A stretch of DNA of 64,000 bases from Manis javanica (Eukaryota > Chordata > Mammalia > Pholidota > Manidae), in assembly GCF_040802235.1 (NCBI RefSeq), contig NC_133156.1, positions 144,877,173 to 144,941,172 on the forward strand, in the 5' to 3' direction. A program made the position numbers and the translations under genes. Of the stretch, positions 2,379 through 43,262 are shown one piece after another. Numbering within the stretch: position 1 is the first letter of the stretch; the number at the start of each line of letters is the position of its first letter. The notes under the pieces are model-generated. The model saw only the letters and a program-made list of their open reading frames with translations. It searched no databases and was not told the DNA's origin.

Positions 2379-3289
2379 GCAGTTAGTGATAGGCAGAGCC
2401 CAGCACACCCCAGGATTTACTGTAGAGGTCTCACTGAGAGTGTCATTCCCTACTTAGAACTCTGGGGAGAAAGAGTCTCAGGAATAAGTGCCAGAAACAG
2501 ACATGTTTCTGCTTAGTGAATGATATCTCCTTATGGTCTCTTTACATTATAAAGCTGATCTTATTTCCCTTTCTGTTTAAGGTGCTAAGAAGTTCAGAAT
2601 AATAGCCCAATCTACCCTTAATGAATTACATTTGTGCACTGTTAACTTTATACCAGGGCTTAGTACTGCTTTCACTTTTCTCTTGTCTTTATTTTTGTTT
2701 TAAAAAAACCATTTTCTTTACCCTGTATCAAGTGTCCTTAGGAATGAATTACTAATGTACCAACAAAGGAAGTGAAAAAAAAACAGACTCTTGGAGGAAT
2801 ACCATGGAGGCAATGTTGTCAGAGCAGTTACATCTAGAGCAATTTCTTTTACCTTATCTCCATTTTCTTCCACCCACACTCAGATAAGAAGGGTGATCTA
2901 GGTCTCCTCCAGAGAGATTCCACCTCACAGTCAAAATGAACAACAGGTTTGGGAAAATGTCCTAGCATCATGTTGGTAAGAGCATAATGCCACATGGTAG
3001 ATTATTAAAGAATTTCAAAACTATCATCATAGGAGTAGTTCTGTGTGCTCTCTCAGCACACCTATGCAAGTCTGAAAGTTGCCACTCTATGACCAGAGTT
3101 TGCTGCAATCTCTTAGAAGTGGAGAATGGCAGACACTTGCTATGGAAATTCAAACCTTGTTTTCAGAATAAGCCAGCTGATCTTCATTGCTAATAAAATT
3201 ATTAATTGGCACAACCTGTATGGCAGCCAACTTGGGGATACCTATATCAGAATTACAAGTACATATGTCCTTTGCTATAGCTGCCTCAC
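2379..3289. other. Unique sequence, nothing recognised
   Basis: This AT-rich stretch has no repeat family I recognise and no convincing exon. Short open frames on both strands (60-100 codons) lack any family resemblance. Confidence 0.5.
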
Positions 3290-28338: not shown

Positions 28339-28727
28339 TATATGGGCTGAATTGTGTCCTCTCCACAAATTCACTTAAAGTCCTAACTCCCAGGACTTCA
28401 GAATGTGACTACATTTGTAGATAGGGTCGTTAGAGGAATGATTAAGTTAAAATGAAGACATTAGAGTGGGCCTGAATCCAAAAGGACTGATGATCTGATA
28501 AGAAGAGAACATTAGGACACAGGCATGCACAAAGGGAAGAATAAGGACACAGGGAGAAGATGGCTGTCTATGAACCAAAGAGTCAGGTCTGAGAAAAATC
28601 CAGCCCAGCTGACAATTTCACTTGGACTACCAGACTCCAGAAACTGTCACAAAAATTAATTTCTGCTGATTAAACTACCTAGTGCATAATAGTGCGTTAT
28701 AGCAGCCCTGGCAAACTAATACAAACT
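28339..28727 (+). mobile_element. MLT1-like (ERVL-MaLR) LTR
   Basis: Good end-to-end match in order: ATATGGGCTGAATTGTGTCC, AAGTCCTAACTCCCAGGACT, AGAATGTGACTACATTTGTA, GATAGGGTCGTTAGAGG, TTAAGTTAAAATGAAG, GATAAGAAGAGAACATTAGG, ACACAGGGAGAAGATGGCTG, then the end CAGCCCTGGCAAACTAATAC. About 390 bp, plus orientation, solo. L1-A is inserted a few bases after its 3' end, so this LTR is older than L1-A. Confidence 0.85.
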
Positions 28728-28733
28728 CTTTGC
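28722..28733. repeat. Left target-site duplication of L1-A
   Basis: CAAACTCTTTGC lies immediately before the 18-T run that starts L1-A on the plus strand. It is repeated at 36560-36571 immediately after the L1 5' end. Including the following T's, the duplication may be 16-17 bp with one lost A. Confidence 0.9.
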
Positions 28734-28769
28734 TTTTTTTTTTTTTTTTTTGAGAAGGCATCTCTCATA

Positions 28770-28775
28770 TTTATT
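28770..28775 (-). terminator. Polyadenylation signal AATAAA of L1-A tail
   Basis: TTTATT on the plus strand is AATAAA in sense, about 18 nt upstream of the 18-A tail. It explains where the transcript of the source element was cleaved. It belongs to the LTR-like tail rather than to the L1 3' UTR. Confidence 0.8.
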
Positions 28776-28896
28776 GATCAAATGGTTGTTCACAACAATA
28801 AAATTCTGTATAAGGGGGTCAATGCTCAATGCACAATCATTAATCCATCTCAAGCCTAATTCTCATCAGTCTCCAATCTTCTGAAGCATAACGAAC

Positions 28897-28953
28897 AAGT
28901 TTTTACATGGTGAACGAATTCTTACATAGTGAATAAGTTCTTACATGGTGAAC
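28897..28953. repeat. Three 19-bp tandem units in the LTR-like tail
   Basis: On the plus strand the units are AAGTTTTTACATGGTGAAC (28897-28915), GAATTCTTACATAGTGAAT (28916-28934) and AAGTTCTTACATGGTGAAC (28935-28953). A fourth, decayed unit may precede at 28881-28896. Short repeats of this kind are common in U3 enhancers. Confidence 0.85.
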
Positions 28954-29076
28954 AGTGCAAGGGCAGTCATATCACAGAAACTTTCGGTTTTGATCACGCA
29001 TTATGAACTATAAACAATCAGGTCAAATATGAATATTCATTTGATTTTTATACTTGATCTATATGTGGATCCCGCA

Positions 29077-29087
29077 TTTCTCCCTTT
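29077..29087 (-). other. Polypurine-tract-like AAAGGGAGAAA
   Basis: On the minus strand AAAGGGAGAAA is followed directly by TGCGGGATCC. A polypurine tract next to a TG start is how retroviruses prime plus-strand DNA at the U3 boundary. Upstream in sense orientation is an (AAT)n-rich stretch (29088-29111). Role inferred from position between the Env-like frame and the LTR-like stretch. Confidence 0.55.
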
Positions 29088-29714
29088 ATTATTATTATTA
29101 TTTTTATTTTTAATAAAATGCTGAAGTGGTAGGTAGATGCAAGATAAAGTTAGAAAACATAGTTTAGTGTTTTAAGAGAGCAATTGTAGATGATCAGGTG
29201 TGTGCCTGTAGACTATGTGCTAATCCGAGCTAGACAAGGGCAATAAAACATCCACGGATGCAGAAGCTTTATCTCAAAAAAGAGTGGGGGGGATGAGGTT
29301 CTAAGCTTCACCACTGTTGTTCCCCGATTTCTCACCTGATTGCCCCCCTGCGACTGTGCCTGCCTTATGTTGTTCCTCCCTTGAGGAATCTTAGCCGTCT
29401 CTGGCTAACCAGTCATCTTCCGGGGCCATACAGGGAAATGTAAAGTTGGTAAGTGAGAGAGAAGCCATATTGTTTGAAAAGGTTAGCTTTGTACTTCTTT
29501 GCAGATTTATACCCTGTGGCTTCTATGCCCAGCACTTGTCTCAAGGTATCTTTAACACCTGGAGGAATTATGATACTCGGTAAATTCGATATGAGGCACG
29601 AATTCTATTTAAGGGTTGTAATTAGGAAGGAAGAAGAAAAGCTATAGAGGTAGCATATGGAAGAAAACATGGGAGGATTGATTATTTCTTTGACATATCT
29701 TCTTGTAGAGAACC

Positions 29715-30167
29715 TTAAGCATGTATAGGTTTTAAACTACTAACTAACTTGCACACACATACTAACATAATAGGAATACGGTGACATAAACAAAGCAAAT
29801 CTATAATTACCAGCCATCTCCAGTGAAGCCAAGAAAACCATTTAGGCACCCTAGGCATTTGTGAAAATTTGTCTATGATATGATGGATATTGTCCAACTG
29901 TACTTGAACAGTCTGAGAGAAATCAGACAAATTAAAGCAAACCATTTCTGGGATCTGTTCACATCCCATATGTTCTTTTAACCGTAGATAGTCTATAGTC
30001 ATGAGATTTTGGAGTGCTACAACTTGCACCCCTCCCAACTCCTGGTTGAGTTCCAACAGTACAGATCCGGTCAAATTCGTTGTCTCTCTGTATGCACATG
30101 CCAGCCTAGACATCTCCCTCCACATTCCTATGGCTAGTCCAGGAAATGGTGGGGTGGACGCAGCCAC
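29715..30167 (-). pseudogene. Retroviral Env transmembrane-subunit-like frame in the L1-A tail
   Basis: This frame has 150 codons from a GTG at 30167; the open frame itself reaches back to a TGA at about 30212 with no ATG in that extension. Features in order: an Ala/Val-rich hydrophobic start like a fusion peptide; a heptad-type helix (LLELNQELGG); the LQN box (VVALQNLMTIDYLRL) of the conserved retroviral TM core; GCEQIPEMVC, which corresponds to the CX6CC loop but has Val where the middle Cys should be; FNLSD; a Trp-rich stretch before the membrane (WFSWLHWRW); and a hydrophobic anchor (LVIIDLLCLC). No surface subunit or cleavage site precedes it. In an exogenous virus this subunit mediates membrane fusion; this fragment lacks the partner subunit, an ATG start and a disulfide cysteine. 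The family match is by motif order and resembles the alpha/gamma-type TM class. Confidence 0.7.
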
Positions 30168-30405
30168 AACGGCAGCATAGCCTGGATCCCTGTGGAGGCT
30201 TTTTGATGATCATCCCTGGGCACGAGTCCTCCAGAGAGAGCTGATGCCGGAATCTCCTCCTCATATCGTATCTTAGTTCATTTTCTGGGTAGCCAAGCTA
30301 GGCCTTCATCTTCTGCATAGAAACAAACAGACCCTTTGCCCACCCTTTGACATGCTCTCTATACCACTGTGCAGAACTCATTGAAGGTCAGCACACAGTA
30401 ACTGC

Positions 30406-30417
30406 TTTTTTTTTTTT
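30406..30417 (-). repeat. Internal A12 run marking the ancestral L1 3' end
   Basis: Twelve T on the plus strand (A12 in sense) follow the L1 3' UTR terminus ...CTTAAT, exactly where L1-B carries its own terminal poly(A). It is a fossil poly(A) of the source L1 and marks the junction with the foreign tail. Confidence 0.8.
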
Positions 30418-30928
30418 ATTAAGAGAAAGGCATATTATTAGAAAAGAGTACCTCCATAGCTGATCATCTAACACCCTTTAAGGGATCAAAATTAAGGATA
30501 TTGAAAGCATCTGTTAATCTTTGATTTACCAATAGTTTTATCCTATCAAGGAGTAATCCCCCTTTAATTTCTTTCTTTCTATTTTTTTTTTAATCTTTAA
30601 TCTACACTTACATGAAGAATACTATGTTTACTATGCTCTCCCCTATATCAGGTTCCCCCTAAAAACCACATTACGGTAACTGTCCATCATCATAGCAAAA
30701 TGTTGGAGAATCACTACTTGTCTTCTTGGTGTTGAACAGCCCTCCCCTTTCTCCCTCCCCCCCTATACATGCTAATCTTATTACCGCCCTTCTTCTCCCC
30801 CCCCTTATCACTCCCTGCCCACGCATCCTCCCCAGTTCCTTTCCCTTTGGTACCTGTTAGTCCATTTTTGGGTTCTGTAATTCCGCTGCTGTTTTGTTCC
30901 TTCAGTTTTTCCTTTGTTCTTATACTCC
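30418..30928 (-). other. Ordinary L1 3' UTR of L1-A, with G-rich tract
   Basis: This is homologous to the L1-B 3' UTR (37.83-38.15 kb): shared blocks include CACTACTTGTCTTCT, GCTGCTGTTTTGTTCCTTCA and TTTCCCTTTGG. It is longer than in L1-B by about 190 bp near its end. On the sense strand it is very G-rich at 30806-30791 and 30765-30741 (runs of three to eight G), a known L1 3' UTR property that can form quadruplexes. Confidence 0.8.
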
Positions 30929-33900
30929 TCAGATGAGTGAAATCATTTGGTATTTCTCTTTCAACACTTGGCTTATTTCACTGAGCATAATACTCTCCAG
31001 CTCCATCCATGTTGCTGCAAATGGTAGGATTTTTCCGCTTCTTATGGCTGAGTAGTATTCCATTGTGTATATGTACCACCTCTTCTTTATCCATTCATCT
31101 ACCGATGGACATTTAGGTTGCCTCCAATTCTTGGCTATTGTAAATAGTCCTGCGATAAACATACGGGTGCATCTGTCTTTCTCAAATTTGATTGCTGCGT
31201 TCTTAGGGTAAATTCCTAGGAGTGGAATTCCTGGGTCAAATGGTAGGTCTGTTTTGAGCATTTTGATGAACCTCCATACTGCTTTCCACAATGGTTGAAC
31301 TAATTTCATTCCTACCAGCAGTGTAGGAGGGTTCCCCTTTCTCCACAACCTCGCCAACATTTGTTGTTGTTTGTCTTTTGGATGGCAGCTATCCTTACTG
31401 GTGTGAGGTGATACCTCATTGTAGTTTTAATTTTCATTTCTCTGATAATTAGCGACGTGGAGCATTTTTCATGTGTCTGTTGGCTATCTGTATTTCTTTC
31501 TTAGAGAACTGTCTGTTCAGTTCTTCTGCCCATTTTTTAATTGGGTTATTTGTTTTTTGTTTGTTGAGATATGTGAGCTCTTTATATATTCTGGACGTCA
31601 AGCCTTTATCGGATCTGTCCTTTTCAAATATATTCTCCCATACTGTAGGGTTCCTTTTTGTTCTATTGATGGTGTCCTTCGCTGTACAGAAGCTTTTCGG
31701 CTTAATGTAGTCCCACTTCTGTGGACATTCATTTTTGCTGTTGTTTTCCTTGCCCGGGGAGATATGTTCAAGAAGAGGTCACTCATGTTTATGTCTAAGA
31801 GGTTTTTGCCTATGTTTTTTTCCAAGAGTTTAATGGTTTCATGACTTACATTCAGGTCTTTGATCCATTTTGAGTTTACCTTTGTATATGGGGTTAGACA
31901 ATGGTCCAGTTTCATTCTCCTACATGTAGCTGTCCAGTTTTGCCAGCACCATCTGTTGAAGAGACTGTCATTTTGCCATTGTATGTCCATGGCTCCTTTA
32001 TCAAATATTAATTGACCATATATGTTTGGGTTAATATCTGGAGTCTCTAATCTGTTCCACTGGTCTGTGGCTCTGTTCTTGTGCCAGTACCAAATTGTCT
32101 TGATTACTATGGCTTTGTAGAGCTTGAAGTTGGGGAGTGAGATCCCCCCTACTTTATTCTTCTTTTTCAGGATAGCTTTGGCTATTCGGGGTCTTTGGTG
32201 TTTCCATATGAATTTTTGAATTATTTGTTCCAATTCATTGAAGAATGTTGCTGGTAATTTGATAGGGATTGCATCAAATCTGTATGTTGCTTTGGGCAGG
32301 ATGGCCATTTTGACGATATTAATTCTTCCTAGCCATGAGCATGGGATGAGTTTCCATTTATTAGTGTCCCCTCTAATTTCTCTTAAGAGTGACCTGTAGT
32401 GTTCAGACTATAAGTCTTTCACTTCTTTGGTTAGGTTTATTCCTCGGAATTTTATTCTTTTTGATGCAATTGTGAATGGAATTGTTTTCCTGATTTCTCT
32501 TTCTATTGGTTCATTGTTAGTGTATAGGAAAGCTATAGATTTCTGGGTGTTAATTTTGTATCCTGCAACTTTGCTGTATTCCGATATCAGTTCTAGTAGT
32601 TTTGGAGTGGAGTCTTTGGGGATTTTTATGTACAGTATCATATCATCTGCAAAAAGTGACAGTTTAACTTCTTCTTTACCAGTCTGGATTCCCTGTATTT
32701 CTTTGTTTTGTCTGATTGCCATGGCTAGGACCTCTAGTACTATGTTAAATAACAGTGGGGAGAGTGGGCATCCCTGTCTGGTTCCCAATCTCAGAGGAAA
32801 TGCTTTCAGCTTCTTGCTGTTCAGTATAATGCTGGCTGTGGGTTTATCATATACGGCCTTTATTATGTTGAGGTACTTGCCCTCTATTCTCATTTTGCTT
32901 AGACTTTTTATCATGAATGGATGTTGAATTTTGTCAAATGCTTTTTCAGCATCCATGGAGATGATCATGTGGTTTTTGTCTTTCTTTTTGTTGATGTGGT
33001 GGATGATGTTGATGGATTTTCGAATGTTGTACCATCCTTGCATCCCTGGGATGAACCCCACTTGGTCATGGTGTATGATCCTTTTGATATACTGTTGAAT
33101 TCTGTTTGCTAATATTTTATTGAGTATTTTTGCATCTACATTCATCAGGGATATTGGTCTGTAATTTTCTTTTTTGGAGGGGTCTTTGCCTGGTTTTGGT
33201 ATTAGGGTGATGTTGGCCTCATAGAATGAGTTTGGGAGTATTCCCTCTTCTTCTATTTTTTGGAACACTTTAAGGAGAATGGGTATTATGTCTTCTCTGT
33301 GTGTCTGATAAAATTCCGAGGTAAATCCATCTGGCTCTGGGGTTTTGTTCTTGGGTAGTTTTTTGATTACTGTTTCAATTTCTTTGCTCATAATTTGTTT
33401 GTTTAACTTTTGTGTTTCTTCCTTGGTCAGTCTTGGGAGGTTGTATTTTTCTAGGAAGTTGTCCATTTCTTCTAGGTTTTCCAGCTTGTTGGCATATAGG
33501 TTTTCATAGTAGTCTTTAATAATTCTTTGTATTTCTGTGGAGTCTGTTGTGATTTTTCCATTCTCATTTCTGATTATGTTGATTTGTATTGATTCTCTTT
33601 TTCTCTGAATAAGTTTGGCTAGAGGCTTATCTATTTTGTTTATTTTCTCAAAGAACCAGCTCTTGGTTTCATTGATTTTTGCTATTGTTTTATTCTTCTC
33701 AATTTTGTTTATTTCTTCTCTGATCTTTATTATGTCCCTCCTTCTGCTGACTTTAGGCCTCATTTGTTCTTTTTTTTCCAGTTTTGATAATTGTGATGTT
33801 AGACTATTCATTTGGGATTGTTCTTCCTTTTTTAGGTGTGCCTGGATTGCTATATACTTTCCTCTTAAGACTGCTTTTGCTGCGTCCCACAGAAGTTGGG

Positions 33901-34746
33901 GCTTTGTGTTGTTGTTGTCATTTGTTTTTATATATTCCTTGATCTCTATTTTGATTTATTCATTGATACATTGATTATTTAGAAGCATGTTGTTAAGCCT
34001 CCATGTGTTTGTGAGCTTTTTTGTTTTCTTTGTAGAATTTATTTCTACTTTTATACCTTTGTAGTCTGAAAAATTGGTTGGTAGAATTTCCATATTCTGG
34101 AATTTACTGAGGCTCTTTTTGTGAGCTAGTATGTGGTCTATTCTGGAGAATGTTCCATGTGCACTTGAGAAGAATGTATATCCTGTTGCTTTTGGATGTA
34201 GAGTTCTATAGATGTCTGTTAGGTCCATCTGTTCTAGTGTGTTGTTCAATGCCTGTGTGTCCTTACTTATTTTCTGCCCGGTGGATCTATGCTTTGGGGT
34301 GAGTGGTGTGTTGAAGTCTCCCCTAAAATGAATGCATTGCAGTCTATTTCCCTCTTTAGTTCTGTTAGTATTTGTTTCACAAATGCTGGTGCTCCTGTGT
34401 TGGGTGCATATATATTTAGAATGGTTATATCCTCTTGTTGGACTGAGCCCTTTATCATTATGTAGTGTCCTTCTTTATGTCTTTTTACTTTCTTTGTTTT
34501 GAAGTCTATTTTGTCTGATATTAGTACTGCAACCCCTTTCTTCTCACTGTTGTTTGCCTGAAATATGTTTTTCCATCCCTTGACTTTTAGTCTGTGCTTG
34601 TCTTTGGGTTTGAGGTCAGTTTATTGTAAGCAGCATATAGATGGGTATTGCTTTTTTATCCATTCTATTACTCTGTGTCATTTGATTGGTGCATTAAGTC
34701 CATTTACATTTAGGGTGACTATTGAGAGATATGTACTTATTGCCAT
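30929..34746 (-). pseudogene. L1-A ORF2 (endonuclease/reverse transcriptase), inactivated
   Basis: The start ATG is at 34746 (MAISTYLSIVTLNVNGLNAP) and the stop at 30931-30929 after ...MISLI. Intact, this would be about 1,270 codons. Domain remains in order: endonuclease pieces (34458-34267; 34249-33956, with SRIDHIL); a 467-codon uninterrupted RT block (33811-32408) with [36 protein letters not shown] and the catalytic LFADDMILY; then post-RT blocks 32308-31598 and 31360-30929. Lesions: a stop after LNAPIK near the start; a one-base insertion (CTCCCCTAAAATG) that shifts the frame inside the endonuclease GDFN motif; a stop after NNQCINE; a stop after TKEVKDL; and frameshifts at about 31.6-31.36 kb. 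The protein normally nicks DNA and copies L1 RNA at the nick. This copy cannot make it. Confidence 0.93.
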
Positions 34747-34959
34747 TGCAGGCGTTAGATTCGTGGTTACCAAAGGTTCAAGATTAGCTTCTTTGGTATC
34801 TTACTGCCTAACTTAACTCGCTTATTGAACTGTTATATACACTGTCTGGAGATTCTTTTCTTCTCTCCCTTCTTATTCCTCCTCCTCCATTCTTCATATG
34901 TTGTGTGTTTTGTTCTGTGCTCTTTTTAGGAGTGCTCCCATCTAGAGCAGTCCCTGTAG

Positions 34960-35831
34960 GATGCCCTGTAGAGGTGGTTTGTGGGAAGCAAATTCCCTCA
35001 GCTTTTGCTTGTCTGGAAATTATTTAATCCCGCCATCATATTTAAATGATAGTCTTGCTGGATACAGTATCCTTGGTTCAAGGCCCTTCTGTTTCATTGC
35101 ATTAAATATATCATGCCATTCTCTTCTGGCCTGTAGGGTTTCTGTCGAGAAGTCTGATGTTAGCCTGATGGGTTTTTCTTTATAGTTAACCTTTTTCTCT
35201 GTAGCTGCGTTTAAAACTCTTTGCTTGTCCTTGATCCTTGCCATTTTAATTATTATGTGTCTTGGTGTTGTCCTTCTTGGATCCTTTCTGTTGGGGGTTC
35301 TGTGTATTTCCATGTCTGTTCGATTATTTCCTCCTCCAGTTTGGGATAGTTTTCAGCAATTATTCCTTCAAAGAGACTTTCTATCCCTTTTCCTCTTTCT
35401 TCTTCTTCTGGTACCCCTATAATACGAATATTATTCCTTTTGGATTGGTCACATAGTTCTCTTAGTGTTGTCTCGTTCCTGGAGATCCTTTTATCTCTCT
35501 CTATGTCAGCTTCTATGTGTTTGTATTCTCTGGTTTCTATTCCTTCAATGGCCTCTTGCATCTTATCCATTCTGCTTATAAATCCTTCCAGGGTTTGTTT
35601 CACTTCTGTGATCTCCTTCCTGACAACTGTGATCTCCCTCCGGACTTCATCTGATTGCTCTTGCCTTTTTCTCTGCATCTCATTCCATTGCTCTTGCATT
35701 TTTCTCTGCATCTCCGTCAGCATGTTTGTGATTTTTATTTTGAATTCTTTTTCAGGAAGACTGGTTAGGTCTGTCTTCTTCTCAGGTGTTGTCTCTGTGA
35801 TCTTGGTCTGCCTGTAGTTTTGCCTTTTCAT
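34960..35831 (-). pseudogene. L1-A ORF1 (RNA-binding chaperone), frameshifted
   Basis: The start ATG at 35831 (MKRQNYRQTKITETTPEKK) opens a 192-codon frame to 35253. It contains a coiled-coil (EMQRKMQEQWNEMQRKRQEQ, then heptads to about residue 100) and the RRM start (LRELCDQSKRNNIRIIGVPE). A frameshift at about 35.31 kb moves the reading to 35313-35020, which holds the C-terminal domain (RHIIIKMARIKDKQRVLNAA, RREWHDIFNAMKQK) and ends in a premature stop after DGGIK. The expected last stretch continues in the same frame to about 34.96 kb. Family knowledge: ORF1p trimers coat L1 RNA. The frameshift separates the RRM from the C-terminal domain, so the product is dead. Confidence 0.9.
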
Positions 35832-36559
35832 GGTGATAGAGATAGTTTGCAGAGCTGGTACGAGTGACAGCTGGAAGAGCTTTCCTTCTTGTTGGTATGT
35901 GGCTTTCCTCTCCTGGGAGAATAGCGACCTCTAGTGGCCTATGCTTGGCAGCTGTGCACAGACAGGGCTTCTGCTACCTGCCCTTTTGGTATGGAGTTTA
36001 TATCCGGTGTTGCTGTGGGCGTCGCCTGGCTGGGGCTGCCCCTCCAAAATGGTGGAGCCCCATTGGAGGGGGAGTGGCCGGGAGTCTATTTATCTAGGTA
36101 AGGGGCCTCTGTGCTCCCTGTTGCCCAGGGGGTTAGAGTGTCCAGAGATCCCCAGATTCCCTTCCTCTGGTCTAAGTGTCCTGTCCTGCCCCTTTAAGAC
36201 TTCCAAAAAGCACTCTCCAAACCGAAACAACAACAGCAACAACGAAAGAGGAAAAAAAAAAAAGAAAAGGAAAAAATCGAGCGATTTTCTTTGTCCTCAC
36301 GCGCCAGTCCCAGGCACCTGCTCACCGGTCTTGCTGCCCTGCCTTCCTAGCACCGGGGTCCCTGTCCATTCAAGGCTTTCAAAAAGCACCCCCTTCGTGA
36401 GGCGCTGGGTTCTTGCAGGTGTGGATGTGGTCTGGATGTTGTCCTGTGTCCTCTGGTCTCTATTTTAGGAAGTTTTCTTTGTTATATTTTCATAGATCTA
36501 TGTGGTTTTGGGAGGAGATTTCCACTGCTCTACTCACGCTGCCATCCTGGCTCCGCCCC
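35832..36559 (-). promoter_or_regulatory. L1-A 5' UTR / internal promoter
   Basis: 728 bp, more GC-rich than the body. The first 60 bases in sense (GGCGGAGCCAGGATGGCAGC, then a block ending GGAAATCTCCTCCCAAAACC) match L1-B. The GGATGGCAGC near the start is a YY1-type site, which in other mammalian L1s positions transcription initiation. The rest does not resemble the L1-B 5' UTR and has no tandem monomers. An A-rich tract lies on the plus strand at 36250-36262. Confidence 0.8.
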
Positions 36560-36571
36560 CAAACTCTTTGC
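36560..36571. repeat. Right target-site duplication of L1-A
   Basis: CAAACTCTTTGC again (its first C could belong to the L1 end). It is followed by ATTTTAAG, the pre-insertion TTTT/AA endonuclease site. Confidence 0.88.
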
Positions 36572-37807: not shown

Positions 37808-37823
37808 TCCCTACACAATCTTT
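37808..37823. repeat. Left target-site duplication of L1-B
   Basis: TCCCTACACAATCTTT, matching TCCCTACACAACCTTT at 43263-43278 with one mismatch, borders the short poly-T that begins L1-B. Confidence 0.85.
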
Positions 37824-38157
37824 CTTTTTTATTAAGGTATCATTGATATACAATCACATGAGCAACATTGTGGTTACTAGATTCCCCCCATTATCAAGCC
37901 CCCACCACATACCCCATTACAGTCACTGTCCATCAGCATAGTAAGATATTATAGAGTCACTACTTGTCTTCTCTGTGTTATACTTCCTTCCCCATGCCCG
38001 CCCCCATAAGTTATGTGTGCTAATCATAAAGCCCCTTAATCCCCTTATCCCTCCCTTCCCACCCACCCTCCCAAGTCCCTTTCCCTTTGGCAACTGTCAG
38101 TCCATTCTTGGGTTCTGTGAGTCTGCTGCTGTTTTGTTCCTTCAGTTTTTGCTTTGT

Positions 38158-40905
38158 TCCTTGGCTATTGTCAATAATGCTGCAATAAACATAGGGGCGC
38201 ATATGTCTTTTTCAGACTGGGATCCTGCATTCTTAGGGTAAATTCCTAGGAGTGGAATTCTTGAGTCAAATGGTATTTCTATTTTGAGTTTTTTGAGGAA
38301 CCTCCATACTGCTTTCCACAATGGTTGAACTAGTTTACATTCCCACCAGCAGTGTAGGAGGGTTCCCCTTTCTCTGCATCCTTACCAACATTTGTGGTCC
38401 CTAGTCTTTTCTATGTTGGCCATCCTAAATGGTGTGAGGTGATATCTCATTGTGGTTTTAATTTGCATTTCCCTGATAATTAGCAATGTGGAGCATCTTT
38501 TCAGGTGCCTGTTGGTCATCTGAATTTCTTCTTTGGAGAAGTGTCCATTCATATCCTATGCCATTTTAAAAAGGTTATTTGCTTTTTTGGGTGCTCAGGT
38601 GTGTGAGTTCTTTATGTATTTTGGATGTTAAGTGCTTGTCGGACATCTCATTTACTTTCTGCTAGCTCATCATTAGTGTATAGGAATGCAACAGATTTCT
38701 GTGTATTAATTTTGTATCCTTCAACTTTGCTGAATTCAGATATTAGATTTAGTAGTTTTGGAGTGGATTCTTTAGGGTTTTTTTATGTACAATATCATGT
38801 CATCTGCAAACAGTGACAGTTTAACTTCTTCCTTGCCAATCTGGATGCCTTTTATTTCTTTGTGTTGTCTGATTGCCATGGCTAGGACCTCCAGAACTAT
38901 GTTGAATAAAAGTGAGGAGAGTAGGTATCCTTGACTTTTTCCAATGTTAAAGGAAAAGCTTTCAGCTTCTTGCTGTTAAGTATGATGTTGGCTGTGGGTT
39001 CATCATATATGGCCTTCATTATGTTGAGGTTCTTGCCCTCTATGCCCATTTTGTTGAGAGTTTTTATGTGAATGGCTGTTGAATTTTGTTGAATGCTTTT
39101 TCAGATTCTATGGAGATGATCATGTGTTTTTTGTCCTTTTTGTTGATATAGCGGTTAACGTTGATGGATTTTTTAATGTTGCATCCCTGGAATAAATCCT
39201 ACTTGATCATAATGGATGATCTTCTTGATGTATTTTTGAATTCAGTTTGCTAATATTTTGTTCAGTATTTTTGCATCTGTGTTCATCAGGGATAAATTAC
39301 AGGTCTGTAATTTTCTTTTTTTGTGGTGTCTTTGTCTGGTTTTGGTATTAGAGTGATGCTGGCCTCGAAGAATGAGTTTGGGAGTATTCCCTCCTCTTCT
39401 ACTTTTTGGAAAACTTAAAGAAGGATGTGCATTAGGTCTTCACTAAATGTTTAATAAAATTTAGCAGTGAAAAAATATAGTCCAGGTATTTTGTTCTTAG
39501 GTAGTTTTTGATTACCAGTTCAATTTCCTTGCTGGTAATTGGTCTATTCAGATTTTCTGTTTCTTCCTGGATCAGCCTTGGAAGGTTGTATTTTTCTAGG
39601 AAGTTGTCCATTTCTTCTAGGTTATCCAGTTTGTTAGCATATAATTTTTTATAGTCTTCTCTCATAATTCTTTGTATTTCTGTGATATCCATAGTGATTT
39701 TTCCTTTCTATTTCTGATTCTGTTTATGTGTTTAGACTCCTTTTTTTTCTTGATAAGTTTGGCTAGGGGTTTATCTATTTTGTTTATTTTCCCAAAGAAC
39801 CAGCTCTTGCTTTCTTTGATTCTTTCTGTTGTTTTATTCTTCTCAATTTTATTTATTTATGCTCTACTCTTTATTATGTCCCTCCTTCTACTGACTTTGG
39901 GCCTCATTTGTTCTTCTTTTTCTAGTTTCATTAGTTGTGAATTTAGACTGTTCATTTGGGATTGTTCTTCTTTCCTGAGGTAGGCATGTATTGCAATTCC
40001 CTCTTAGCATGGCCTTTGCTGTGCCCCACAGATTGTGTGGGGTTAAATTATTGTTGTCATTTGTCTCCATATATTGTTTGATCTCTGTTTTTATTCAGTC
40101 ATTGATCCATTGATTATTTAGGAGCTTGTTATTAAGCTTCCATGGGTTTGTGGGCTTTTTCGTTTTCTTGTGTAATTTATTTCTAGTTTCATACTTTGTG
40201 ATCTGAGAAGTTGGTTGGTACAATTACAATCTTTTTGAATTTGCTGAGGATCTTTTTGTGGCCTAATATGTGGTCTATTCTGGAAAATGTTCCATGTGCA
40301 CTTGAAAAGAATGTGTATCCTCCTGCTTTTGTGGGGAGTGTTCTATAGATGTCTGTTAGGTCTATTTTTTCTAATGTGTGGTTCAGTGCCTCTGTGTCCT
40401 TACTTATTTTCTGTATGGTTGATCTGCTCTTTGAAGTGAGTGGAGTGTTGATGTCTCCTAAAATGAATGCATTGCATTCTATTTACTCCTTAAATTCTGT
40501 TAATATTTGTTTCACATATGTAGGTGCTCCTGTGTTTGGTGCATAGATATTTATAATGGTTATATCTTGTTGTTGGACTGACCCTTTCATCAATATGTAA
40601 TGTCTGTCTTTGTCTCCTGTTATTTTCTTTGTTTTGAAATCTATTTTGTCTGGTAAAAGTACTGCAACACCTGCTTTTTTCTCCCTATTATTTTCATGAA
40701 GTATCTTTTCTCATCCCTTCACTTTTAGTCTGTGTATGTCTCTGGGTTTGAAGTCTCTTGTAGGCAGCATATCTATGGGTCTTGCTTTTTTATCCATTCT
40801 GTGACTCTGTTTTTCAATTGGTGCATTCAGTCTATTTACATTTAGGGTGAATATTGATAGATATGTAGTTATTGCCTTTGCAGGGTTTGGATTCATGGTT
40901 ATCAA
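38158..40905 (-). pseudogene. L1-B ORF2, inactivated and internally deleted
   Basis: The first frame, at 40905-40711, reads MITMNPNPAKAITTYLSIFT then LNVNRLNAPIEKQ, the ORF2 start. Later frames are short: 39692-39432 holds [15 protein letters not shown] and [10 protein letters not shown]. On the plus strand the sequence of the RT core is still alignable at 38.7-39.4 kb, including the region of the catalytic box, but it is riddled with stops and indels. The post-RT part is shortened by the roughly 880-bp deletion and the C-terminus by the roughly 215-bp deletion. No functional product is possible. Confidence 0.88.
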
Positions 40906-41223
40906 AGGTTCAAGGGCAGCCTCTTACTTTTTAGCAGTCTATCATAGCTCACTTATTACGCTATTATAAACAGAGTCTGATGATTCTTTTTCTCTCCCTT
41001 CATTTTCTACCTCCTCCACTCTTTATATTTTAGGTGTCATATTCTCTACTCTTTGTGTATCCCTTGACTGACTTTGTGTTTAGCTGATTTAATTATGCAT
41101 TTGGTTAGTATTTAATTGGCCTACTTCCTTTTCTGTGGTTGTAGTTTCTCTAGTGATAGCTATTTAGCCTTAGGCATACTTCCATCTATAGCAGTCCCTT
41201 TAAATACACTGTAGAGATGGTTT

Positions 41224-42029
41224 ATGGGAGGTAAATCTGTCAACTTTTGCTTATGTGGGCATTGTTTAATCCCTCCTTCAAATTTAAATGATAATCTTGC
41301 TGGATACAGTATTCTTGGTTTGAGGCTCTTCTGTTTCATTGCATTGAATATATCATGCCATTCCCTTCTGGCCTGTAATGTTTCTTCTGAGAATTCTGAT
41401 GATAGCCTGATGGGTTTTCCTTTGCAGGTGATCTTTTCTCTTTCTGGCTGCTTTTAATACTCTGTCCTTGTCTTTGATCTTCACCATTTTAATTATTATA
41501 TGTCTTGGTCTTGTCCTCCTTGAGTCCCTTGTGTTGGGAGATCTGTGGACTTCCATGTCCTGATAGACTATTTCCTTCCCCAGATTGGGGAATTTTCAGC
41601 AATTATTTCTTCAAAAACACTTTCTATCCCTTTTTATCTCTCTTCTTCTTCTGGCACTCCTATAATGTGAATATAGTTCTGTTTGGATTGGTCACACAGT
41701 TCTCTTAATATTCTTTCTTTCCTAGAGATCCTTTTTTCTCTCTCTGCCTCAGCTTCTCTGTATTCCTGTTCTCTGATTTCTATTCCATGAACAGTCTCTT
41801 CCACATCATTTGGTCTGCTCTTAAATCCTTTCATTGCTTGTTTCATTTCTGTTATCTTCCTCCTGAATTCACCCCTTAGCTACTGAATATTTTTCTTTAG
41901 CTCTATCAGCACACTTATGACTTTTATTTTGAATTCTTTTTCAGGAATATTGGTGATTTCAGTCTCACCAAGCCCTCCTTCTTGTGTTTGAGAGATTTTG
42001 AATTGAACAAGTTTCTTCTGCCTTTTCAT
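41224..42029 (-). pseudogene. L1-B ORF1, inactivated
   Basis: The ATG at 42029 begins an MKRQK-type start. A stop interrupts the N-terminal part near 41.88 kb. A 70-codon piece (41846-41634) carries the coiled-coil end and RRM start (RILRELCDQSKQNYIHIIGV). A frameshifted piece (41556-41353) carries RPRHIIIKMVKIKDKDRVLK. Order and spacing match L1-A ORF1. The RNA-binding trimer cannot be made. Confidence 0.88.
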
Positions 42030-43262
42030 GGCAATGGGAGTGTTCGGCGGTGAGTGGCGTGTGTGTCAGCTGGTAAAACAAAGTCCTGCTTGCCAGTCAC
42101 CTTGCCTGTCTCTGCTGTCTGTGCCGGGTAACTGCACTTAGGGAGCAGCCTCTGGATTAATCCCCTAGGCTGCCATGGGCAGGGAGGCCCTTGGGATAGC
42201 TAGGGCACTTGTGGGCATCGCAGGCCAGCGGTGTGTGTGTCTGCCACAAGGACAAGGCCCCATCATGCCTCCCAGTCTTTGTGCCTGTCTCCTCTGTCTG
42301 TGCTGTTCAACCGCATGCAGGGAGCAGCCTCTGGGTTAATCCCCTAAGCTGCCATGGCGGGGCAGCCTTCGAGATGGGTTAGGGCAATGGTGGGAGTCGC
42401 AGGCCAGCTATACATGTTCTGCCATGAGAACAAAGCCCCTTTGTGCCTCCCAGTCTCCACGCCCGTCTCTGCTGTCTGTTCCATTATATTGCACACAGGG
42501 AGGAGCCTCTGGATCTGGGCTGGTTAGCCACACACAGGGAGAAGCCTCTGCATTATGTTGTGCAGTTGCTGTAGGCAGGGGTGGCCTCTGGCTGGTCTGC
42601 AGCAATGGCAGGGACAGCCAGTTTGCATGTAGGTGCTGGTGGGGAGGAAGGAGTGGCAGGCCACTTATCATGGTGAGGAGCCTCAGGGCTGCATTGCTGA
42701 CCAGGGGGATAGGATTCCTGAAGCTTCTAAAAGTTCCCAGTCTGCTTGGCTGAGTGTGCCAGGACGATTTTGTCCACCTGTTCCTTCTCCCAAACCCTTG
42801 CTTCCCAGCAGCCCTCTGATCATTGAAAGGTCCCTTAAAGCACCTGCTTTTCTTTTGTCCCAGGGCAGCTGGTTTTGGGAACCTGCTCACAGTCTTAGTC
42901 TCAGGACCCACCTTTTAGGCCCTCCAATCTCCAGAACACCATCAATGTGGGTCTGTGCTCCTGGGGTAGATTTCCAGGGCTGGGTATTAAGCAGTCCTGT
43001 GCTTCCACTCCCTCACTGCTCTGATTCTTTTTCTCCCACCAGTGAGCTGGGGTGAGGAGAGCGCCTGGATCCTGTTGGGTCATGGCTTTTTACTTTACCC
43101 TTTTCCATGAGATGTTTGCTTCTCCCAGATGTAGACTGTCTGGTATACTCTTACTTCTGGTCACTCTTTTAGAAATAGTTGTATTTGCTGTATTTTCAAA
43201 ATATATGTGGTTTTGGGAGGAGATTTCCACCACACTACTCATGCCACCATCTTTTTCTCTCT
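42030..43262 (-). promoter_or_regulatory. L1-B 5' UTR / promoter with YY1-like start
   Basis: About 1.23 kb, GC-richer than the surroundings. The sense 5' end contains AAGATGGTGGC (YY1-type) and the block GGAAATCTCCTCCCAAAACC shared with L1-A. Downstream of a single-copy part (about 42.6-43.2 kb) lie three tandem monomers reaching to ORF1. The 5' UTR is 500 bp longer than that of L1-A. Confidence 0.8.
42066..42600 (-). repeat. About 178-bp tandem monomers in the L1-B 5' UTR
   Basis: The plus-strand marker GTCTGTGC/GTCTGTTC starts at 42117, 42296 and 42474, giving spacings of 179 and 178 bp. Around each marker the same order recurs: a GACAAGGCCCC-like block, TGCCTCCCAGTCT, CTGTCT, GGGAGCAGCCTCTGG, TTAATCCCCTA and GCTGCCATGG, with the third copy partly degraded. 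Monomeric L1 promoters are known from mouse; the unit here is not one I recognise. Confidence 0.8.

Follow-up and report, generated by a model that had tools for sequence, protein, structure and literature searches.

An L1 lineage with an endogenous retroviral 3' end in the pangolin Manis javanica

Introduction

Is an L1 element that leads into the 3' part of an endogenous retrovirus (ERV) the product of two insertions, or a single mobile unit with a foreign 3' end? The question is raised by a locus on contig NC_133156.1 of Manis javanica. Within the window (the whole 64,000-nt stretch of DNA that was analysed), an L1 element on the minus strand, L1-A, is followed by 1.65 kb of retroviral sequence. 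The original prediction for this locus described an L1 carrying the retroviral sequence as its own 3' tail, acquired by 3' transduction, and proposed that many copies with the same junction and different target duplications would define a chimeric L1 subfamily.

Structure of the element

Apart from the target-site duplication, all features of the element lie on the minus strand and are described here in sense order. A single exact 12-bp duplication, at 36560-36571 (5' copy) and 28722-28733 (3' copy, CAAACTCTTTGC), flanks L1-A, an A10 run, a 164-bp segment, an A12 run, the tail and a poly(A), in agreement with the outer duplication originally predicted around L1 and tail. The body of L1-A (30592-36559) is full length, with its 5' end adjoining the target duplication, and both ORF1 and ORF2 are broken. 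The L1-A ORF2 reverse transcriptase matched RVT_1 within 32408-33811 (E value 1.9e-44), and Transposase_22, the L1 ORF1 domain, was scored at 35253-35831 (E value 3e-4, 21.4 bits, slightly below the 22.4 cut-off). The L1 5' UTR appears to contain tandem monomers in variable number, at 36255-36389, in several of the copies L040-L058 and at 42103-42514 in L1-B. The latter (37819-43251) is a tail-less relative that ends in CTTAATAAAAAA and shows approximately 80% identity along much of its sequence.

The L1 homology of L1-A is closed by the A10 run (30582-30591). The claim that L1-A ends at the L1-B terminus, at 30417, was not upheld: in the alignment, homology with L1-B stops at approximately 30591, before the extra 164-bp segment (30418-30581), which has no L1-B homology and ends CTTAATAAA. 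This segment probably represents a second step in the assembly of the element, overlooked by the original prediction. It is missing in copy L123, which joins the L1 end GATAAAAAAAAA straight to the tail; L123 may be either the ancestral form or a deletion between the A-runs.

The A12 run (30406-30417) forms the junction between the L1 side and the tail. The whole tail, 1,654 bp at 30405-28752, is followed by the outer poly(A), which reads as T18 on the plus strand at 28734-28751, confirming the description of an L1 with a 1.65-kb retroviral 3' end. In sense order, the tail consists of the end of env with a transmembrane (TM) frame, a non-coding spacer, the polypurine tract AAAGGGAGAAA, an LTR beginning with TG, an AATAAA signal and the poly(A) site. 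Its 5' end (30210-30405) has weak collinearity with env upstream of TM in related ERVs, with alignment z values reaching 3.5 for L076 and 2.6 for L061, and no more than 1.2 in the window copy. The open frame of 164 aa that follows (30209-29715) is a retroviral Env TM fragment of the ASLV type: as the prediction of an Env-TM-like frame suggested, it matched the solved ASLV TM chains PDB 4jpr and 5h9c with E values of about 1e-8 (1.3e-8). There were 23 related proteins for this frame and no Pfam match, and for the tail no Rfam match came close to the cut-offs.

The polypurine tract lies at about 29077-29087 and occurs as AATAAAGGGAGAAATG in 44 of 61 aligned rows. It is followed by approximately 325 bp of LTR-derived U3 and R (28752-29076), which starts with TG and ends at the R/poly(A) site. 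The AATAAA of the LTR part (28775-28770) lies at most 25 nt from the end in 25 of the 26 tail ends checked. Tract, TG-start LTR (boundary at about 29087-29076) and AATAAA were thus present as claimed, and with Env TM and a poly(A) at the end of R, all of these retroviral 3'-end features are found in the tail.

Retroviral relatives of the tail

A search with a diverged TM relative as query gave 28,378 first-look candidates, and the best 150, which were scored, were a mixture of tails and proviruses. In this list, 24 of the 150 scored rows share a 176-aa frame, probably the TM fragment of tail copies, and several rows close to P0021 have frames of approximately 500 aa that probably belong to proviral env. 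From the proviral env matches, eight stretches, each about 2 kb long, were retrieved, seven of them ERVs and one a tail copy (L133). L133, which has a 405-aa frame, was considered as the parent provirus and rejected, being a 5'-truncated tail copy inside an older L1. A parent provirus close to the tail was not found among the retrieved stretches, as the seven ERV relatives share only 63-72% identity with the tail in the TM part. No source locus with transduced DNA flanking a parent L1 was found either; the two candidate sites, tail edges without A at positions -1 and -3 and the only such sites genome-wide, are both L1-linked copies of the tail family. Viral contigs contained no match to the R-region pattern and no relative of the TM frame.

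The end of the tail coincides with the end of R in related LTRs. Four ERV LTRs of the same genome (those of L129, L130 and L132 among the seven relatives, and L148) pass from R into U5 at the point where the tail has its poly(A), and we therefore conclude that the L1 uses the retroviral poly(A) site, in support of the predicted role of an LTR signal. Nine exact R-region sites lack an A at the first and third places after R, comprising one LTR (L148), seven tails in which a few additional bases precede an A-rich run, and one ambiguous site (L141).

Copies across the genome

A 32-base junction pattern, made up of AAA and the tail edge with degeneracy at two places, is matched exactly 3,146 times genome-wide, and not once when reversed. 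Searches with a tail query and a 201-bp junction query gave 4,152 and 929 first-look candidates, respectively, figures which are not copy counts. The best 40 of each were scored: those for the tail each covered 1,000 or 1,001 of 1,001 query bases, and all 40 for the junction reach both sides. An alignment of the retrieved copies that span the junction (non-spanning copies being excluded) places the same junction in 50 non-self rows, where L002 and L062 represent one place and L084 contributes two rows.

When L1 3' ends were collected with 30418-30760, a query blind to L1s that have neither the 164-bp segment nor the tail, the tail was present in 20/20 retrieved, drawn from 39 non-self copies among the matches listed. 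Tail edges of a second subfamily (see below) were preceded by L1-side sequence in 20/20 retrieved, likewise of 39 non-self copies among the matches listed. The A-run was found at the junction in these two sets and in the 50 rows above.

A further sample was selected solely by a match to the final 299 bp of the tail. Sixteen of its 29 non-self copies continue into the L1 side up to the edge of the retrieved stretch and 13 are truncated, 12 of them at 12 different points in the tail and one at 30537; none of the 13 is truncated at the tail edge, 30405. Duplications of 10-18 bp flank 10 of the 13 truncated copies; none was found for L060, L065 and L072 of this sample, nor for the truncated copy L003. 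Poly(A), target duplications and 5' truncation, the hallmarks of L1, are all present in tail-bearing copies. Because 20/20 L1 ends carry the tail, 20/20 tail edges follow L1 and 0/13 truncations fall at the edge, we conclude that the tail belongs to an L1 lineage as its 3' end and is not a separate element.

Duplications enclosing both parts were also recovered outside the window. In the full-length copy L020, one 16-bp duplication encloses L1, A-run and tail, and one duplication surrounds L1-side sequence, A-run and tail in L006, L022, L018 (the same event as L037) and L070, all truncated on the L1 side. Single duplications are thus on record for two full-length copies (window and L020) and four independent truncated insertions. 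No duplication was found around the junction in L007, L025, L011 and L017. Ten long copies were probed for their 5' ends, which were reached in L011, L017 and L020; in the other seven, the end was not within the retrieved stretch, although L021 came near. The test that had been proposed, for many copies with the same junction and differing target duplications, was therefore positive, and the element described here is very probably one copy of an L1 subfamily whose poly(A) site comes from an LTR. The literature searched contained no description of an L1 with a tail of ERV origin, and an unnamed Repbase or Dfam entry may exist.

Age and subfamilies

On average, two of the 51 tails compared differ by 5.0%, and the two smallest differences are 0.06% and 0.19%. 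The 0.06% pair, L018 and L037, represents one event in a segmental duplication, with the same flank and the same target duplication. L023, L024, L026 and L027 otherwise differ by 0.8-1.0%, and amplification therefore continued until fairly recently. Tail-copy pairs with common flanks (L018/L037 in C12 and L011/L016 in C17) point to segmental duplications.

A second tail subfamily comprises L061, L076 and L109-L128. Its env part, from 30405 to approximately 29980, differs by 10-19%, and the rest of the tail by 2-9%, in the two copies compared. Across 391 bp of the env part, the 39 non-self copies listed are 97-98% identical. L061 and L076 had been considered as old copies; this was rejected, as they are members of this second, equally homogeneous subfamily, and they therefore provide no date for the tail. 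Within the tail, a 180-bp block (29330-29150) occurs as two haplotypes with a net difference of approximately 5-12%, compared to 0-2% over most of the tail, the groups being defined by a motif inside the block. These haplotypes suggest a mosaic or gene-conversion-like history.

A conserved non-coding element with a predicted hairpin fold

The spacer between the TM frame and the polypurine tract contains a conserved non-coding hairpin (29350-29417), a candidate for an RNA export element resembling the retroviral constitutive transport element (CTE). This assignment is based on sequence conservation and on a fold predicted for part of its forms. The motif CCTAAGACAGG is present in 58 of 60 non-self rows and missing from L010, L017 and the window copy; the latter has AAGGCA at 29366-29361 in place of AAGACA.

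At the sequence level, the hairpin is conserved. In 49 copies including that of the window, five of which came from a query covering the hairpin, the block 29412-29349 has 0.015 divergence per non-CpG site, compared to 0.040 elsewhere. It is the least diverged block, and 1.8% of equal contiguous tail blocks are as low. Conservation extends to the seven ERVs, which share 83-93% identity with the tail at 29405-29346, compared to 48-59% in the upstream flank (29485-29426) and 69-77% in the downstream flank (29325-29266), then 40-66% further on. Windows in the TM part, from 30125 to 29786, are 62-85% identical.

The hairpin fold is plausible, though unproven. For the most frequent form (16 entries), a hairpin with an internal loop, AGAGAC/AAGACA, is predicted, and an AAGACA internal loop is also predicted in L011. 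This internal-loop fold is predicted for five of the 14 forms shown (of 33), or 24 of 36 entries with the window copy counted twice, while the other nine forms fold otherwise. In the RNAalifold prediction from 27 copies, the outer and inner stems are retained and the middle differs, with AAGAC in a small hairpin loop. Predicted folding energy is only mildly unusual, the z values being -2.36 (window copy), -0.88 (L002) and -1.66 (a 700-nt part of L011). In 97.4% of cells the named pairs can form, compared to 34-48% in slid controls, for a structure that was derived from one of those sequences. The alignment shows no covariation: none of the pairs has changed in both partners, and shuffled controls perform equally well. 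Only one canonical loop was found, where a symmetric CTE has two, and Rfam gave no credible match.

Origin and spread of the composite

We consider it probable overall that the locus represents an L1 subfamily with an ERV 3' end, cleaved at the R poly(A) site; derivation by 3' transduction and a CTE-like role of the hairpin are proposed as further parts of this explanation. In this mechanism, the 3' end of an L1 was replaced by that of an ERV, comprising the end of env, the spacer, the polypurine tract and U3-R. L1 transcripts would run past the old L1 end, with the retroviral R poly(A) signal setting their cleavage point, and L1 proteins would begin reverse transcription at the poly(A) of that site, so that insertions would carry the viral end first and be truncated from the L1 side. 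Capture may have occurred by 3' transduction from a sense-oriented L1 inside, or just upstream of, the 3' half of a provirus, and the 164-bp segment was probably added before the viral tail.

That the two parts met by chance through nested insertion of an L1 and an ERV fragment at this one locus would account for the composite structure and nothing more; it is contradicted by the genome-wide recurrence of the junction and by the single duplication around L1 and tail, leaving it a negligible probability. Scarcely more probable is a non-autonomous element, like SVA or SINE-R, that merely often lies behind L1. The SINE-R of SVA likewise comes from ERV env and LTR, and many tail copies are without L1, but the 13 truncation points are scattered with none at the tail edge, and AAA precedes the edge pattern at 3,146 sites, against the two L1-linked exceptions described above. 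As no sampled insertion starts at the tail edge, the tail was rejected as an independent mobile element.

How L1 and tail were joined is less sharply decided. The original proposal of L1 3' transduction is plausible, and we favor it by a modest degree, but it is not separated from template switching between L1 RNA and ERV mRNA. By the latter route, L1 reverse transcriptase would start on the poly(A) of an ERV mRNA and then switch to an L1 RNA at its poly(A) end, and the resulting L1-A(n)-ERV copy would become the source of the lineage. The A-run sits exactly between the L1 part and the tail, the tail ends at the normal 3' end of an ERV mRNA, and no L1-interrupted provirus was seen among the retrieved stretches, all as expected of such a switch. 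The 164-bp segment, with its own AATAAA and A-run, is instead suggestive of stepwise read-through, and a template-switched copy must retain the promoter, so its L1 part had to be full length; we regard this route as a credible but minority explanation. For the success of the lineage, by whichever route it arose, the chances appear about even that the tail is neutral baggage: the L1s would have spread for other reasons, with the hairpin a viral left-over and only the poly(A) site working. This would fit the altered hairpin of the window copy, the absence of compensatory changes, the lack of a uniform fold and the dispensability of the human L1 3' UTR in a cell assay described in PMC3045867. It fits less well with a hairpin block that is the least diverged of the tail and highly similar in ERV relatives.

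Returning to the mechanism proposed here, the hairpin may act as a CTE-like NXF1 export element that aids unspliced L1 RNA, and would then explain part of the lineage's success. A role in the export of L1 RNA from the nucleus, argued by analogy, is possible but doubtful, and the broader idea that the lineage prospered through a retroviral RNA module, in which the poly(A) site of an LTR is combined with an NXF1 export hairpin resembling a CTE, is likewise offered tentatively.

Comparison with known systems

Lineages formed by 3' transduction are known in human L1. They share with the present element the L1 poly(A), foreign 3' sequence, second poly(A) and one target duplication; here, however, a retroviral env-LTR piece supplies the poly(A) site, and it ends at least two subfamilies and thousands of copies. 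SVA contains a SINE-R derived from the env-LTR end of an ERV, and resembles the tail in having an env end and U3-R with AATAAA that are moved by L1 machinery. SVA is non-autonomous and without L1, whereas the piece described here belongs to an L1 and gives no sign of moving alone.

For the candidate hairpin, the closest parallel is the type-D CTE. As described for retroviral CTEs, a conserved AAGACA in the internal loop of each half takes one Tap-p15 (PMC4330393), and the type-D CTE is two-fold symmetric (PMC4330390). The pangolin hairpin has the same position, between env and polypurine tract/LTR, and AAGACA in the predicted internal loop of its commonest form (compare PMC4330393). It differs in having one AAGACA in place of two symmetric loops and in its non-uniform fold, and is a candidate NXF1-binding element.

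An NXF1-binding element is reported for human L1 (Lindtner et al., 2002, cited in PMC3045867), spanning the final 20 nt of ORF2 and the initial 70 nt of the 3' UTR, and a gain of an export element by L1 is therefore plausible, although in the cell assay of PMC3045867 a synthetic human L1 works without its 3' UTR or a CTE. Both the human element and the pangolin candidate lie at the 3' end of L1 RNA; the former is L1's own sequence, whereas the latter would be acquired from a retrovirus (compare PMC3045867). SERV-K/MER11 proviruses are described as having gained a CTE by capturing an env/LTR-derived piece of another retrovirus (PMC11379458). The mode of gain would be alike, but the taker there is a retrovirus and here a non-LTR retrotransposon.

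Conclusions

An L1 lineage of M. javanica has exchanged its 3' end for a retroviral one, which has persisted across at least two subfamilies and thousands of insertions. An env fragment, a poly(A) site of viral origin and a conserved non-coding element from the virus are thereby dispersed across the genome; the predicted spread of an env fragment holds at the level of sequence. If the hairpin does serve as proposed, a non-LTR retrotransposon would have borrowed the nuclear export of simple retroviruses, adding to or replacing the element of its own 3' UTR. The lineage opens to experiment the question of whether RNA signals of foreign origin can determine which L1 lineage prevails.
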